Source of the DNA: an uncultured Verrucomicrobiota bacterium
GTDB lineage: Bacteria; Verrucomicrobiota; Verrucomicrobiia; Limisphaerales; UBA9464
DNA length: 64,000 nucleotides
Assembly: GCA_903939515.1 (NCBI GenBank)
Contig: CAJAHH010000135.1
Coordinates: forward strand, 1-64,000
Direction: 5' to 3'
The position numbers were made by a program, and so were the translations under genes. The notes beneath the pieces are model-generated. The model ran no database searches and had not been told where the DNA came from. It saw nothing but the letters and a program-made list of their open reading frames with translations. Below, in pieces: positions 48,076 through 52,261 of this stretch (position 1 is the stretch's first letter; each line of letters begins with the position of its first letter).

Positions 48076-48897
48076 TCACTGGGCCTGTTTTCGGCATTCT
48101 CGCACGACGAACGCCACGAGTTCCGGTGATTGGAAAAACCCCGTCCACATGTTGTGTCCCTGCCCCGCTGGGACCACCCATTCGAAGGTTCCTCCCAATG
48201 CTTGATACCGCGATCGCACCAGGCCGGAGTTGGCCTCCAACGGCACCAGTTTGTCTTGGTCGCCATGGATCACAAAGAGCGGTACCCGGGCTCGGGCCAA
48301 GGGCTCCAATCGATCCACCGGATTGTGCCGGGTCAATTGCGCCTCTAAATCCACCGGTTTGAGTCCAAAAGCCGGAGCGGCATTGGTGATGCCTGGGTAA
48401 CTCGCTAAATTGCAAACCGGATAAATCCCAGCGAATCCAGCCACCTTGTCGGGGTTCTCGGCTGCCCAAGACAGGGTCATCAGACCTCCACGGCTGCGAC
48501 CCAACAGCATCACCTTTCGGGCAAATTTGCGGTGCGAGGTGAGTTCTTCATGGAATGCCGAATAGAGCACTCGCCCCGCCGCGTTGCCGTAGGATTCCCC
48601 CACGTCGATGCCAGCAACCGCGATGCCCGCTTCGAGAAAGCGCTCGAACATCCACTTCTCTTCAGTTCCAGGAAGCCCCGGCAAGGTCGGAGCGTAGAGC
48701 ACCCAGGGTATAGTTTTTCCGGCCGAGGGTGGAACGATGACAAAGGCCGTGTGTCCGCGGATGGACAGCACCTCACCGGGCAGCGGCAAAACTTTTTGGG
48801 GTGGTACCACCAGCTTTGCCTCTTCGGCCCGGATGGACACCCCCATCATCGCCAAGAAGACCCAAACCCCAAGACTCCGTCGTATCGTTGTCATCAT
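48076..48897 (-). CDS. Exported alpha/beta hydrolase
   Basis: A 273-residue serine hydrolase with signal peptide MTTIRRSLGVWVFLAMMGVSIRA. The nucleophile elbow is MLLGRSRGGLMTLSWA (GxSxG), the acid is in VIHGDQDKLVPLEAN and the base in AGQGHNMW. An esterase or deacetylase-like role is possible; substrate unknown. Its start overlaps the stop of the EIIC-like permease gene by 4 nt, so it is translated together with it, and it sits in the GH84 operon. Confidence 0.86.
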   Translation of the reverse strand: MMTTIRRSLGVWVFLAMMGVSIRAEEAKLVVPPQKVLPLPGEVLSIRGHTAFVIVPPSAGKTIPWVLYAPTLPGLPGTEEKWMFERFLEAGIAVAGIDVGESYGNAAGRVLYSAFHEELTSHRKFARKVMLLGRSRGGLMTLSWAAENPDKVAGFAGIYPVCNLASYPGITNAAPAFGLKPVDLEAQLTRHNPVDRLEPLARARVPLFVIHGDQDKLVPLEANSGLVRSRYQALGGTFEWVVPAGQGHNMWTGFFQSPELVAFVVRECRKQAQ

Positions 48898-50186
48898 TGC
48901 TGTTTCTCCTGGTTGAGCGTGGTTCCTTGAGGCACGAAAACGGTCGACAGCGGCGACAATGAGGCCGCGGCCAAGCGCTGCCTCTCGGCCGCTTTAGCAA
49001 AGGGCCAGTAAACCAGCATCGCCAAACCCAACGAAACAACGCCCCAAACAGCTGCCCGCCAATCACCCCCGGTCAGCAAGTAATGGCCGATGACCGGCGG
49101 CGTGGTCCACGGGACATTGACGAAGGGTTTTCGAATCCAACCCCAGTCCATCAGGCAATACGTCGAGGCTGTCAGCAGCAAGGCGTTGGCCACGTAAGGG
49201 ATCATGAACCACGGATTGAGCACGATGGGGATGCCGAAGAAAATGGGCTCGTTGATTTGGAAGATTTGGGTCGGCAAGGACAGTCGACTAATTTTCCGGT
49301 AGGCCGGGTCTTTAGACATCGCCAAAATTAACGCCAACCCCAGCGTCGCTCCGGTGCCGCCAACATTGACGAAGGTCGAAAAAAATCCATTGGCTGTCAC
49401 ATAGGGCATGGGCTGACCGCGGCCCACGGCCTCCACATTCTCGGCTAAAAATTGCAGAAAAATCGGCGCCACAAAGGCATCGAGCGTGTTGTCGCCATTA
49501 ATGCCCACCGACCACAAGAGCGTCACCAGAAAGGCGTACACCAGAATGCCCGGCAGGGTGTTCAAGGCGAAGACCAACGGCTTGAAGAGCGTCTGAACGC
49601 CGGCATTAATATCCACCCCCATCACGAAGCGCAGGATCCAAAAGGCCACCACGAGGAACACCGTCGGAGTCAATGAAATGAACGTGTCCGACACCACCTT
49701 GGGCACCGAATCCGGCAAACGAATGACCCAATTGGCATCGGTGAAGGCCTTCTGGATGCGGACTGTCACTAGGGCTATCAGTATGGCCGTGAACAACCCC
49801 TTCGATCCCAGTCCCTCCATGACCAGGGTTTGATCCTTCATCTCTAACTGGATAAGCATGAAGACTAGCGCCGCCTGCGTCGCACTCAAGATGGCCTCTT
49901 GTTTGAGCCGGGTTCCCAGATCGTAGCCGATGGCCAGACAGACGAAGAGACCCAAGAGTCCGAAGGTGGCGGTGACGGGAATTTGCAGGAGCGGCAGGTG
50001 CGGAGCCATCCGGGCTTCCCACCCTGGGATGGGCAGATAAGCCACCACCATGAAGAGCCCGCCCAAAATGGTCAGAGGGACCACGGAAACCATCCCGGCG
50101 CGGATGGAGGCGAGATAGGTGTTCTCACTGAGCGCGGTCATCCGCGGGATCAGCCAGCGGTGAAGAAAGAGGGACAGCGAGTTCAT
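48894..50186 (-). CDS. EIIC-like sugar permease (cellobiose/chitobiose type) with atypical active site
   Basis: A 430-residue inner-membrane protein of the lactose/cellobiose PTS EIIC family, with about ten hydrophobic segments and the family start RWLIPRMTALSENTYLASIR. EIIC proteins of this type (ChbC) hold the sugar with a Glu in NEPIFFG, present here as Glu313, and with a His in GIHG. Here that motif is WSVGINGDN, so the His is replaced by Asn230. No EIIA, EIIB, HPr or EI gene lies nearby. I infer an uncoupled (non-phosphorylating) transporter for N-acetylhexosamine oligosaccharides. It is the third gene of the GH84 operon, 21 nt behind the GNAT gene. Confidence 0.88.
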   Translation of the reverse strand: MNSLSLFLHRWLIPRMTALSENTYLASIRAGMVSVVPLTILGGLFMVVAYLPIPGWEARMAPHLPLLQIPVTATFGLLGLFVCLAIGYDLGTRLKQEAILSATQAALVFMLIQLEMKDQTLVMEGLGSKGLFTAILIALVTVRIQKAFTDANWVIRLPDSVPKVVSDTFISLTPTVFLVVAFWILRFVMGVDINAGVQTLFKPLVFALNTLPGILVYAFLVTLLWSVGINGDNTLDAFVAPIFLQFLAENVEAVGRGQPMPYVTANGFFSTFVNVGGTGATLGLALILAMSKDPAYRKISRLSLPTQIFQINEPIFFGIPIVLNPWFMIPYVANALLLTASTYCLMDWGWIRKPFVNVPWTTPPVIGHYLLTGGDWRAAVWGVVSLGLAMLVYWPFAKAAERQRLAAASLSPLSTVFVPQGTTLNQEKQQ

Positions 50187-50207: not shown

Positions 50208-50876
50208 TCACTTCTCACTCGAGGCAGCCGTGAGGTCATTTAATCGGTGACCCAAATACAGGCAACCATCTGTCCCCTCCCCGACCTGGATGAGCGGCTG
50301 AAATCCCAGCTTCCGGTAAAACCCCTGAGCCGGGATGTTGGGCAAGCTCACCCCAAGGTGCGCTCCCGGTGATCCGCGCTGACGCAGCAACCCCAGCACT
50401 TCCGCCATCATCGCTCGACCCAGCCCTCGACCTTGAGCCCGTGGCAACAAGTCGATGTGCACATGCGAGGGATATTGGTCGTAGGGCTCCGGGCAAAAAT
50501 AATCCGGGTGGTGATAGACGTGGTGGATTTGCTGGACCCGGTTCCATCCGCCCGGGTCGCCGGTCGGGGCCGGATAAGCCCGGCACAACTCCGGCCGCCA
50601 CTCGGCTTCATACCGAGCGTAAAACGCGTGGGAATCCATCGCCGCGAGCACGTACCCACAAATGCCCTGGTCATCTTCGAGGATCCGCGCCAACTCCGGC
50701 TCGTAGTCCAGATAGGGCCCCACGAATACCCGGCCCAACGCCTCTGGATCGTCGCGGTAAAACGGCTCGCCATCCTGCCCGAAATTGCCGGTCTTCAGGC
50801 AAACCGCGTAGGCACCAGCCCTGTCACCCGCTTGGGGTGGGCGCAACTGAAAGGGAAAAGGAAGGGTCGAAGTCAT
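50208..50876 (-). CDS. GNAT-family acetyltransferase like the HAT-like domain of O-GlcNAcase
   Basis: A 222-residue GNAT protein. The acetyl-CoA binding loop is clear: LLPRAQGRGLGRAMMAEVL (R/QxxGxG/A). The N-terminal half, FVGPYLDYEPELARILEDDQGICGYVLAAMDSHAFY, and the end, GAHLGVSLPNIPAQGFYRKLGFQPL, resemble from memory the C-terminal pseudo-HAT domain of animal O-GlcNAcase and its bacterial homologue OgpAT. Unlike the animal domain it keeps the CoA loop, so it may be active. Its ATG overlaps the stop of the GH84 gene by 4 nt, so the two proteins are coupled in translation. Confidence 0.9.
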   Translation of the reverse strand: MTSTLPFPFQLRPPQAGDRAGAYAVCLKTGNFGQDGEPFYRDDPEALGRVFVGPYLDYEPELARILEDDQGICGYVLAAMDSHAFYARYEAEWRPELCRAYPAPTGDPGGWNRVQQIHHVYHHPDYFCPEPYDQYPSHVHIDLLPRAQGRGLGRAMMAEVLGLLRQRGSPGAHLGVSLPNIPAQGFYRKLGFQPLIQVGEGTDGCLYLGHRLNDLTAASSEK

Positions 50877-52261
50877 ATCGCCGAGGCTGGTCCGGGGTTC
50901 AGGTTCATGGAGGTCCATTCCATCGAGCCGTCTGGCCAGGGGGTCAGGAACGACTGAACGCGCACCACAAAGCCTCCACGATACGTCTTCGGCCGGTGGA
51001 AGTCGGACTCGAACGGAGTGCCCGCGCGGGCCGGATCGATCTGGTGGCTCCACCAACGGTCAATAAGGTCCAATTCCTCCCGCAATTCCCAGACCCTGCG
51101 GTGGAATGCGTGAAACAAGCCGCGATCCTTCAAATCCACCAACCGCGCACAAAAGTCCTTCAACCGAAGCATCCGCGCTCGCACGGCCAGCGACTCCGGG
51201 TCCTCCGGCCGCCGGGGCCACGACAAACTTCGGGCGATAGCCTGCGCCAACGCATCGGCTTCAGGCCCCTCCCGATACGGCAGATAGAAACAATCCGCGA
51301 AGGTCACCAAATCATCGAAACTCAACGGAGCTCCCACGGTGGCGAATCGAGGCCACCAGGCCTTCAAACCCTCGAGAAACGACGCCCGGGAATCCCATAC
51401 ACTGTCGGCCGCGAGGTAGGCCCCGAACGAATGGATCGGCACGAAGTTCAGCGGAAACTCCGTATTGGGATTGAGCAGAATTCCCCGCACCGCCTGTTTC
51501 AGCTCCAGAGGTCTTCCGGCATACGGACCGCAGAAAAAGCGGCGACCATCGTAATCATTGGCGAAGAGATTATCCCAGATGAGTGGAGGACGGCGCAGGA
51601 TTTTGGTCAACCGAGCGAGCGGGTCCAAATCCAGCGTCTCGGAAATGATCTCCGGACCCGTCCAAAAGATGTCGATGTCAGGATGAAGACCCAGACCGAG
51701 TGTTTCCAAATACCCCTCACCTCCGTGACGTGCAGCAACCATCCGTGCGCAATAGGGCGTTGGGCACACCAGAAAGCGACCCAGCGTGCGTGCGCGAGTC
51801 CAGGCGTACACCTCATTGACCCAGGCAGCTTGAGCGGCCGCCAGAGAGCCCCAGCGAGCCAGATCTTCGGGGCGCATCGCGTCTGGGATGTCATCGAGCA
51901 AGATGCAAAAGTCGTTGACGCCATCGTCCAGCAGCTGCGTCAGGCGACCTTGAATGGCAGCCATGTCGGCGGGATCCGAATACGTGACATCCAGTCCCGG
52001 GCTGCAGGCATAGATAAGACGCAAACCGCGCTGCCGGCATCCGGCCACTGCCTCCCGGACCTCCATAAGCCCAAAATCATCGTACGGTTGCCGCCAGATG
52101 GCTCGCTGATGCAAATCATCCTTGGGACCATAAAAGTAGGTATTAAGGCCGCCGCGAACCATCCAATCCCAAAGTTGGGATCGCTCGGACGGGGTCCACG
52201 GCGGGCCATAGAAACCCTCGATCACGCCGGATAAAAACTGGGGTTCGGAAGAGTCAGTCAT
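50873..52261 (-). CDS. GH84 beta-N-acetylglucosaminidase (O-GlcNAcase-like)
   Basis: A 462-residue glycoside hydrolase family 84 protein with no signal peptide, so it is probably cytoplasmic. The catalytic pair is Asp123-Asp124 in CILLDDIPDAM, matching the DD used for substrate-assisted catalysis by O-GlcNAcase. FLSGVIEGFYGPPWT, LNTYFYGPKDDLHQRAIWR, IYACSPGLDVTYSDP, IFWTGPEIIS and IWDNLFANDYDGRR closely follow the human OGA catalytic domain as I remember it. After about residue 330 comes a helical region. It removes terminal beta-N-acetylglucosamine; the natural substrate in this bacterium is unknown. It is the first gene of an operon with the GNAT gene, the EIIC-like permease and two others. 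Confidence 0.94.
   Translation of the reverse strand: MTDSSEPQFLSGVIEGFYGPPWTPSERSQLWDWMVRGGLNTYFYGPKDDLHQRAIWRQPYDDFGLMEVREAVAGCRQRGLRLIYACSPGLDVTYSDPADMAAIQGRLTQLLDDGVNDFCILLDDIPDAMRPEDLARWGSLAAAQAAWVNEVYAWTRARTLGRFLVCPTPYCARMVAARHGGEGYLETLGLGLHPDIDIFWTGPEIISETLDLDPLARLTKILRRPPLIWDNLFANDYDGRRFFCGPYAGRPLELKQAVRGILLNPNTEFPLNFVPIHSFGAYLAADSVWDSRASFLEGLKAWWPRFATVGAPLSFDDLVTFADCFYLPYREGPEADALAQAIARSLSWPRRPEDPESLAVRARMLRLKDFCARLVDLKDRGLFHAFHRRVWELREELDLIDRWWSHQIDPARAGTPFESDFHRPKTYRGGFVVRVQSFLTPWPDGSMEWTSMNLNPGPASAI

Follow-up and report, generated by a model that had tools for sequence, protein, structure and literature searches.

In animals (human and Trichoplax), O-GlcNAcase (OGA) is a single protein in which a GH84 domain with a stalk is followed by a HAT-like domain. 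The HAT-like domain binds no acetyl-CoA (PMC12494797; PMC3814719) and is, in the full-length OGA structures of 2025, a domain of unknown function (PMC12494797). A bacterial counterpart in two genes was described by Rao et al. 2013 in Oceanicola granulosus (PMC3814719; PDB 2xsa, 3zj0), where the acetyltransferase OgpAT is encoded just downstream of OgOGA; the paper remarks that this order resembles that of the animal domains. The split GH84-GNAT pair is thus already known, and the paper gives it neither a function nor an acceptor. A second member of the same GNAT family is SsAT of Streptomyces sviceus (PMC3919268; PDB 4bmh). Its acceptor cavity was judged to suit a small polar molecule, and density seen in the structure was left without assignment (PMC3919268). 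In the literature found, no acceptor is reported for any member of the OgpAT/SsAT/OGA-HAT family. A hydrolase is combined with an acetyltransferase also in the fungal protein RmNag, a GH3 hexosaminidase with a GNAT that makes glucosamine and chitosan oligomers cleavable by acetylating them, and which thereby cleaves chitobiose (PMC4680927).

The DNA analysed here (the window) is a stretch of 64 000 nucleotides, positions 1 to 64 000 of contig CAJAHH010000135.1, from an uncultured Verrucomicrobiota bacterium of the order Limisphaerales. Its GH84-GNAT pair and the adjoining genes are as follows.

50873..52261, minus strand: predicted GH84 beta-N-acetylglucosaminidase of the OGA type, 462 aa; catalytic D123-D124; catalytic barrel and C-terminal stalk region
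50208..50876, minus strand: predicted GNAT acetyltransferase of the OgpAT/SsAT/OGA-HAT family, 222 aa; P-loop Q148-G-R-G-L-G153; H138/H140, D142, N180; insertion with D81, F85, W93
50873..50876, minus strand: ATGA overlap of 4 nt, GH84 stop and GNAT start (from ORF coordinates)
48894..50186, minus strand: lone PTS EIIC of the lactose/cellobiose family, ChbC-like, 430 aa; Asn230 at the position of ChbC His250, Glu313 at that of Glu334
48076..48897, minus strand: alpha/beta hydrolase, prolyl-oligopeptidase-like, 273 aa; ATGA overlap with EIIC
48894..48897, minus strand: overlap of 4 nt, EIIC stop and alpha/beta-hydrolase start (from coordinates)

The initial annotation described the two animal OGA domains as separate adjacent genes in the animal order with an ATGA overlap. 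The coordinates on the minus strand and the homology of both proteins bear this out: there are two ORFs with a 4-nt overlap and not one polypeptide as in the animal-type fused OGA. The GNAT start is the ATG at 50876, and the longer frame reaching a TTG at 51056 is mechanical. Along the minus strand the order is GH84, GNAT, EIIC, alpha/beta hydrolase, with the EIIC directly downstream of the pair; the alpha/beta hydrolase adjoins EIIC only in close relatives of the window. As in Oceanicola, the two families stand in the same order, with the GNAT immediately downstream and its acetyl-CoA loop intact. What is new here is the gene partners, which make a cassette of more than two genes (the cluster here adds a lone EIIC and other amino-sugar genes), and the clear amino-sugar setting of the pair.

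The GH84 protein of the window matches the Pfam model NAGidase (E 2e-67), OgOGA (E about 1e-95) and the OGA of human and Trichoplax (E about 1e-74 to 1e-76). Identity is 47 per cent to OgOGA over the catalytic domain, and 38 and 42 per cent to human and Trichoplax OGA over the GH84 domain. Residues 310-439 align weakly to the stalk domain of human OGA. The catalytic Asp-Asp reported earlier is confirmed, since D123-D124 fall on the pair of OgOGA and human OGA in the alignment, and by its sequence the protein is an OGA-type beta-N-acetylglucosaminidase of predicted activity. GH84 catalysis uses the substrate's own 2-acetamido group, and hence needs the N-acetyl. By eye, the protein has no evident N-terminal signal peptide, in agreement with intracellular cleavage.

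As no type comes closer to animal OGA than the window GH84, it might strip O-GlcNAc from proteins, with the GNAT tuning this activity as in the animal enzyme, and Thermobaculum terrenum indeed has both OGT and OGA (PMC4683255). We consider such O-GlcNAc protein cycling very unlikely in this host, since no match to GT41 OGT (PF13844) was found in its genome (96% complete), with two control genomes positive, and since the neighbours of the pair are transport and sugar-catabolism genes.

The window GNAT gives E values of 3.5e-37 against OgpAT (40 per cent identity) and 1.2e-35 against SsAT, and of 1e-19 to 1e-17 against the C-terminal domains of Trichoplax and human OGA (about 27 per cent identity). 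These family matches span residues 9-197, whereas the next GNAT (E 4e-4) aligns over residues 140-193 only, the CoA motif. The predicted model (pLDDT 94.5) has helices at 82-100 and 113-122, and contains the family insertion (alpha3-alpha4, between beta3 and beta4). Its best fold matches are OgpAT (Z 30.2 over 202 residues), SsAT (Z 27.6) and the HAT domain of Trichoplax OGA (Z 25.0 over 198 residues); all other folds reach at most Z 17.4, usually over some 150 residues, and are without the insertion. By sequence and by predicted fold, the window GNAT thus groups with the OGA-HAT homologues and not with ordinary GNATs, a grouping on which the initial annotation had made its architecture depend.

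Many of the nearest folds after the OGA-HAT family are N-terminal protein acetyltransferases (Z 15-17), as would be expected if the GNAT were a regulator that acetylates a protein such as GH84 or the permease. This reading is improbable. Those folds align over about 150 residues and have no such insertion. In the family, the acceptor groove is closed by the insertion, and the resulting tunnel would clash with peptides (PMC3919268; PMC3814719). GNAT-EIIC and GNAT-kinase pairs also exist without GH84 (see below).

The residues of the family active site were compared in 89 bacterial members. Nearly invariant are R12, D18, C26, T29, G33, Y55, G74-Y75, D81, F85 and W93, together with H138, H140, the P-loop (QGRGLG, 148-153) and N180 (window numbering). 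This set includes residues assigned to acetyl-CoA binding and proton transfer (Rao PMC3814719; He PMC3919268), and all family-invariant residues of the CoA and catalytic sites are present in the window GNAT. In SsAT, Tyr103, His185, His187, Asp189 and Asn227 correspond to Y55, H138, H140, D142 and N180. The acetyl-CoA loop had been described as intact here and degraded in the animal domain, and the alignment agrees (QGRGLG in the window, TDPSVA in human OGA). The window GNAT keeps both the P-loop and the catalytic histidines, which human OGA has lost, and it is predicted to be active.

The positions altered in animals are unevenly distributed. In human OGA, 7/7 compared CoA and catalytic positions are changed, whereas 6/6 conserved positions in the stretch G74-P95, where beta3 ends and the insertion begins, are kept, a contrast between donor and acceptor side with a Fisher p of 0.0006 for positions picked after viewing the alignment. 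On the same sets of positions, similarly picked, Trichoplax OGA keeps 1/7 and 5/6 (p 0.03). This pattern suggests that animals lost the donor side of the HAT domain and kept the acceptor side; alternatively, the conservation of G74-P95 may reflect a fold constraint.

The distribution of the pair was established from both of its genes and from EIIC. A scan of one genome per species gave at least 352 relatives of the GNAT, and 80 loci were read. GH84 lies just upstream of the GNAT in two loci of Trueperaceae (Deinococcota) and in the majority of those from Verrucomicrobiota and Planctomycetota, and in this place in none of the Actinomycetota or Proteobacteria loci sampled. Sampled from the GH84 side, 38 of the 44 distinct testable OGA-type GH84 genes of the host's order have the GNAT directly downstream. 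The earlier expectation that the two genes are usual neighbours thus holds within the host's order and fails in Actinomycetota and the sampled Proteobacteria. As the GH84-GNAT cassette occurs mainly within the host's order, a phylum-wide sample contained almost none. The overlap is exactly 4 nt in half of the pairs examined (19/38), and loci L036 and L160 have two further such overlaps, by coordinates. Family members in Streptomyces and other Actinomycetota are lone genes; the Streptomyces relatives sampled, unlike the window gene, have no GH84 beside them.

These lone genes could be taken as a sign that GH84 and GNAT are chance neighbours without a functional link. That idea is hardly credible given the 38/44 adjacency, the recurrent 4-nt overlap and the occurrence of the same pair in Verrucomicrobiota, Planctomycetota, Deinococcota (Trueperaceae) and Oceanicola (PMC3814719), and within the host's order chance adjacency is refuted by the counts. 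Two candidate bacterial GH84-GNAT fusions, an 805-aa frame in L103 and a 907-aa frame in L193, were rejected as read-through with arginine-rich, non-protein-like sequence. At L173, a second GH84 stretch lies about 1.9 kb upstream of a GH84-GNAT-EIIC set. It is 73 per cent identical to the window GH84, the regular GH84 of that locus being 50 per cent identical, and is a possible duplication or remnant.

The EIIC of the window scores 286 bits against TIGR00410 (cut-off 236; E 4e-85). The only solved relative found is ChbC (PDB 3qnq), a diacetylchitobiose translocator (PMC6048161) of the same lactose/cellobiose PTS EIIC family. The two proteins differ at the position of ChbC His250, which is Asn in the window protein. 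There is Asn in 18 cassette EIICs and in 30/30 EIICs from relatives, the two sets overlapping (copies at window:48894-50186 (-), L010-L046 and L127-L156), whereas control PTS EIICs of the same family from plasmids have His in 7/7 cases, as has ChbC. Glu334 of ChbC is kept in the cassette EIICs (Glu313 in the window). According to Cao et al., in 2011, His250 and Glu334 of ChbC reportedly lie at the phosphorylation site of the sugar. The host genome gave no match to EIIB (PF02302) or lactose-type EIIA (PF02255), with positive controls. Given the Asn and the lack of EIIA and EIIB matches, the natural reading is that the lone EIIC may be a PTS permease working without phosphorylation. A PTS Enzyme I is present in the host (L177:1282-3063 (+)), on contig C59 of its genome.

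Sampled from the EIIC side, the GNAT lies within 1.5 kb of EIIC for 25 of the 30 EIIC genes from relatives. The place of EIIC varies, the gene being first in L036 and L160 and divergent in L029, and there are GNAT-EIIC loci without GH84 (L018, L020, L021, L046).

In other lineages, EIIC is replaced or joined by an ABC importer for sugars, a kinase of the GlcNAc type and a SIS sugar protein. At L031, GH84, GNAT, a BadF-type kinase and a SIS protein (NF002805) follow an ABC sugar importer with a binding protein that resembles NgcE weakly. Partners of these kinds also accompany GH84-GNAT at L045, L215 and L219; of the kinase and SIS genes, one or both recur at these three loci, at L027, L041 and at others. 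EIIC, GH84, GNAT, kinase and SIS genes are consecutive at L160. For the BadF-type kinase the best NCBIfam model is NagK, scoring below its cut-off. The SIS proteins of L031, L045 and L160 all match NF002805; an identification of the SIS neighbour as NagS (GlcNAc-6P dehydratase) was dropped as unproven, as distant NagS homologues are inactive as NagS (PMC12680351).

In Proteobacteria, the GNAT occurs in amino-sugar clusters without GH84. At L090 of Falsirhodobacter it accompanies an ABC importer, a BadF kinase, a ROK regulator, nagB and an amidohydrolase, and at L091 of Duffyella an importer, ROK and a kinase. The Falsirhodobacter gene (L090:4698-5309 (+)) is on a plasmid of F. algicola, in a GlcNAc-type cluster, and overlaps by 4 nt a DMT transporter gene. 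As the GNAT is found with sugar genes even where GH84 is missing, what these loci share is the uptake of sugars and the catabolism of amino sugars.

The best explanation of these neighbourhoods, in which we have moderate confidence, is that the GNAT is an amino-sugar N-acetyltransferase of a cytoplasmic salvage cassette. From the genes, their coupling, their neighbours, which are conserved across lineages, and their residues, we infer an acceptor and a transported compound. The EIIC-like permease, without a PTS phosphorylation chain, would import a beta-linked amino-sugar glycoside derived from chitin or peptidoglycan. With acetyl-CoA, the GNAT would N-acetylate glucosamine, most simply either a glucosamine residue at the non-reducing end or free glucosamine. 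GH84 would then release GlcNAc, using the new 2-acetamido group, and the GlcNAc would pass to the BadF-type kinase. Acetylation could precede or follow cleavage, and neither order is preferred. In the first case, partly deacetylated chitin or peptidoglycan fragments would become usable; in the second, free glucosamine would feed the GlcNAc kinase. An action on glucosamine had been guessed in the initial annotation and is in line with the gene context, its re-acetylation of a released sugar being one of the two orders, between which the evidence does not separate.

The salvage reading is supported by the ties of the GNAT to GH84 (38/44) and to EIIC (25/30), which include GH84-free loci, by the sugar-import, kinase and SIS genes beside the GNAT in other lineages, by the intact CoA and catalytic residues, by ChbC as the only solved EIIC relative found, by the SsAT cavity judged to suit a small polar molecule, and by the precedent of RmNag. 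The latter is an analogy only, because its hydrolase is of family GH3 and not GH84, and its GNAT has no detectable sequence relation to the window GNAT and is not among the sequence matches of the latter. Against it are the lone genes in Streptomyces, the kinases, which NagK models match below their cut-offs, and the search of the host genome, where NagA was not found above the cut-off and a NagB-like match is below it.

Other neighbours also bear on the acceptor. Gfo/Idh/MocA dehydrogenases adjoin some alphaproteobacterial GNATs (Agrobacterium, Microvirga), and several Verrucomicrobiota loci have a gene for a DegT-type sugar aminotransferase between those for GNAT and EIIC. The dehydrogenases would fit amino sugars other than glucosamine as well, and both gene types point beyond glucosamine. 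The GNAT might thus act on another small amine of the pathway, that is, another amino sugar or the aglycone left after the GH84 cut, in detoxification or catabolism. We rate this as rather unlikely, since GlcNAc is the sugar indicated by GH84 as well as by the NagK-like kinase, and nagB adjoins the GNAT in L090. Aminotransferases of the DegT/DnrJ type are found at L158:5593-6858 (-), L163:6557-7810 (+) and L017:10654-11988 (+), and at L158 the genes GH84-GNAT-aminotransferase-EIIC are joined throughout by 4-nt overlaps.

Amino-sugar salvage by the GNAT would be of interest beyond the cassette. The gene neighbourhoods make the function of the family testable, with bacterial GNATs assayed on glucosamine, GlcN-GlcNAc and chitosan dimers. 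If the GNAT acts on such sugars, this would reveal from what kind of enzyme the animal domain descends and suggest a ligand to test on the pocket that it has conserved. The related clusters suggest that the second half of O-GlcNAcase, dead in animals, may be at root an amino-sugar acetylating enzyme. The lone EIIC, with Asn for the His of the phosphotransfer site, provides a second testable point.

By GH84 identity, animal OGA is nearest to Verrucomicrobiota genes, whose proteins are 50-51 per cent identical to human and Trichoplax OGA, compared with 41 and 38 per cent for OgOGA. In trees sampling relatives of the window and the two animals, animal OGA groups with Verrucomicrobiota in a 32-row GH84 tree and in a 27-row concatenated tree. 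For the concatenated tree, the AU test rejects a grouping of the animals with Oceanicola (p 0.006) and with Trueperaceae (p 0.008); the GNAT-only tree (p 0.30 against the Oceanicola group) and a larger, 49-row GH84-only tree (p 0.15) do not fix the place of the animals. Given these inconsistent trees, no origin of animal OGA is claimed, and of the earlier wording, 'an ancestral or independently assembled pair', the word 'ancestral' is left unsettled. A Verrucomicrobiota-like pair as the source of animal OGA is a lead.

A more speculative view, which we regard as doubtful, extends this lead to function. The animal HAT-like domain would descend, in degenerate form, from a bacterial amino-sugar N-acetyltransferase encoded in a GH84-GNAT operon similar to that of the window. 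It would have lost the acetyl-CoA site and kept the sugar-acceptor side (D81, F85, W93 and G74-Y75, window numbering), and may still bind and sense an amino sugar or GlcNAc. In the bacterial cassette, acetylation may replace PTS phosphorylation as the sugar trap.

Two further gene arrangements were observed. In a Verrucomicrobiota genome (L002:1423-3437 (-)), a PIG-L de-N-acetylase overlaps by 4 nt a distant relative (28%) of the GNAT, which by sequence is a deacetylase-acetyltransferase pair. On contig C12 of the host (L176:812-2650 (-)), a BadF-type sugar kinase is fused to a MurNAc-6-phosphate etherase (MurQ) in a protein of 612 aa, which suggests recycling of cell-wall sugars in the host.
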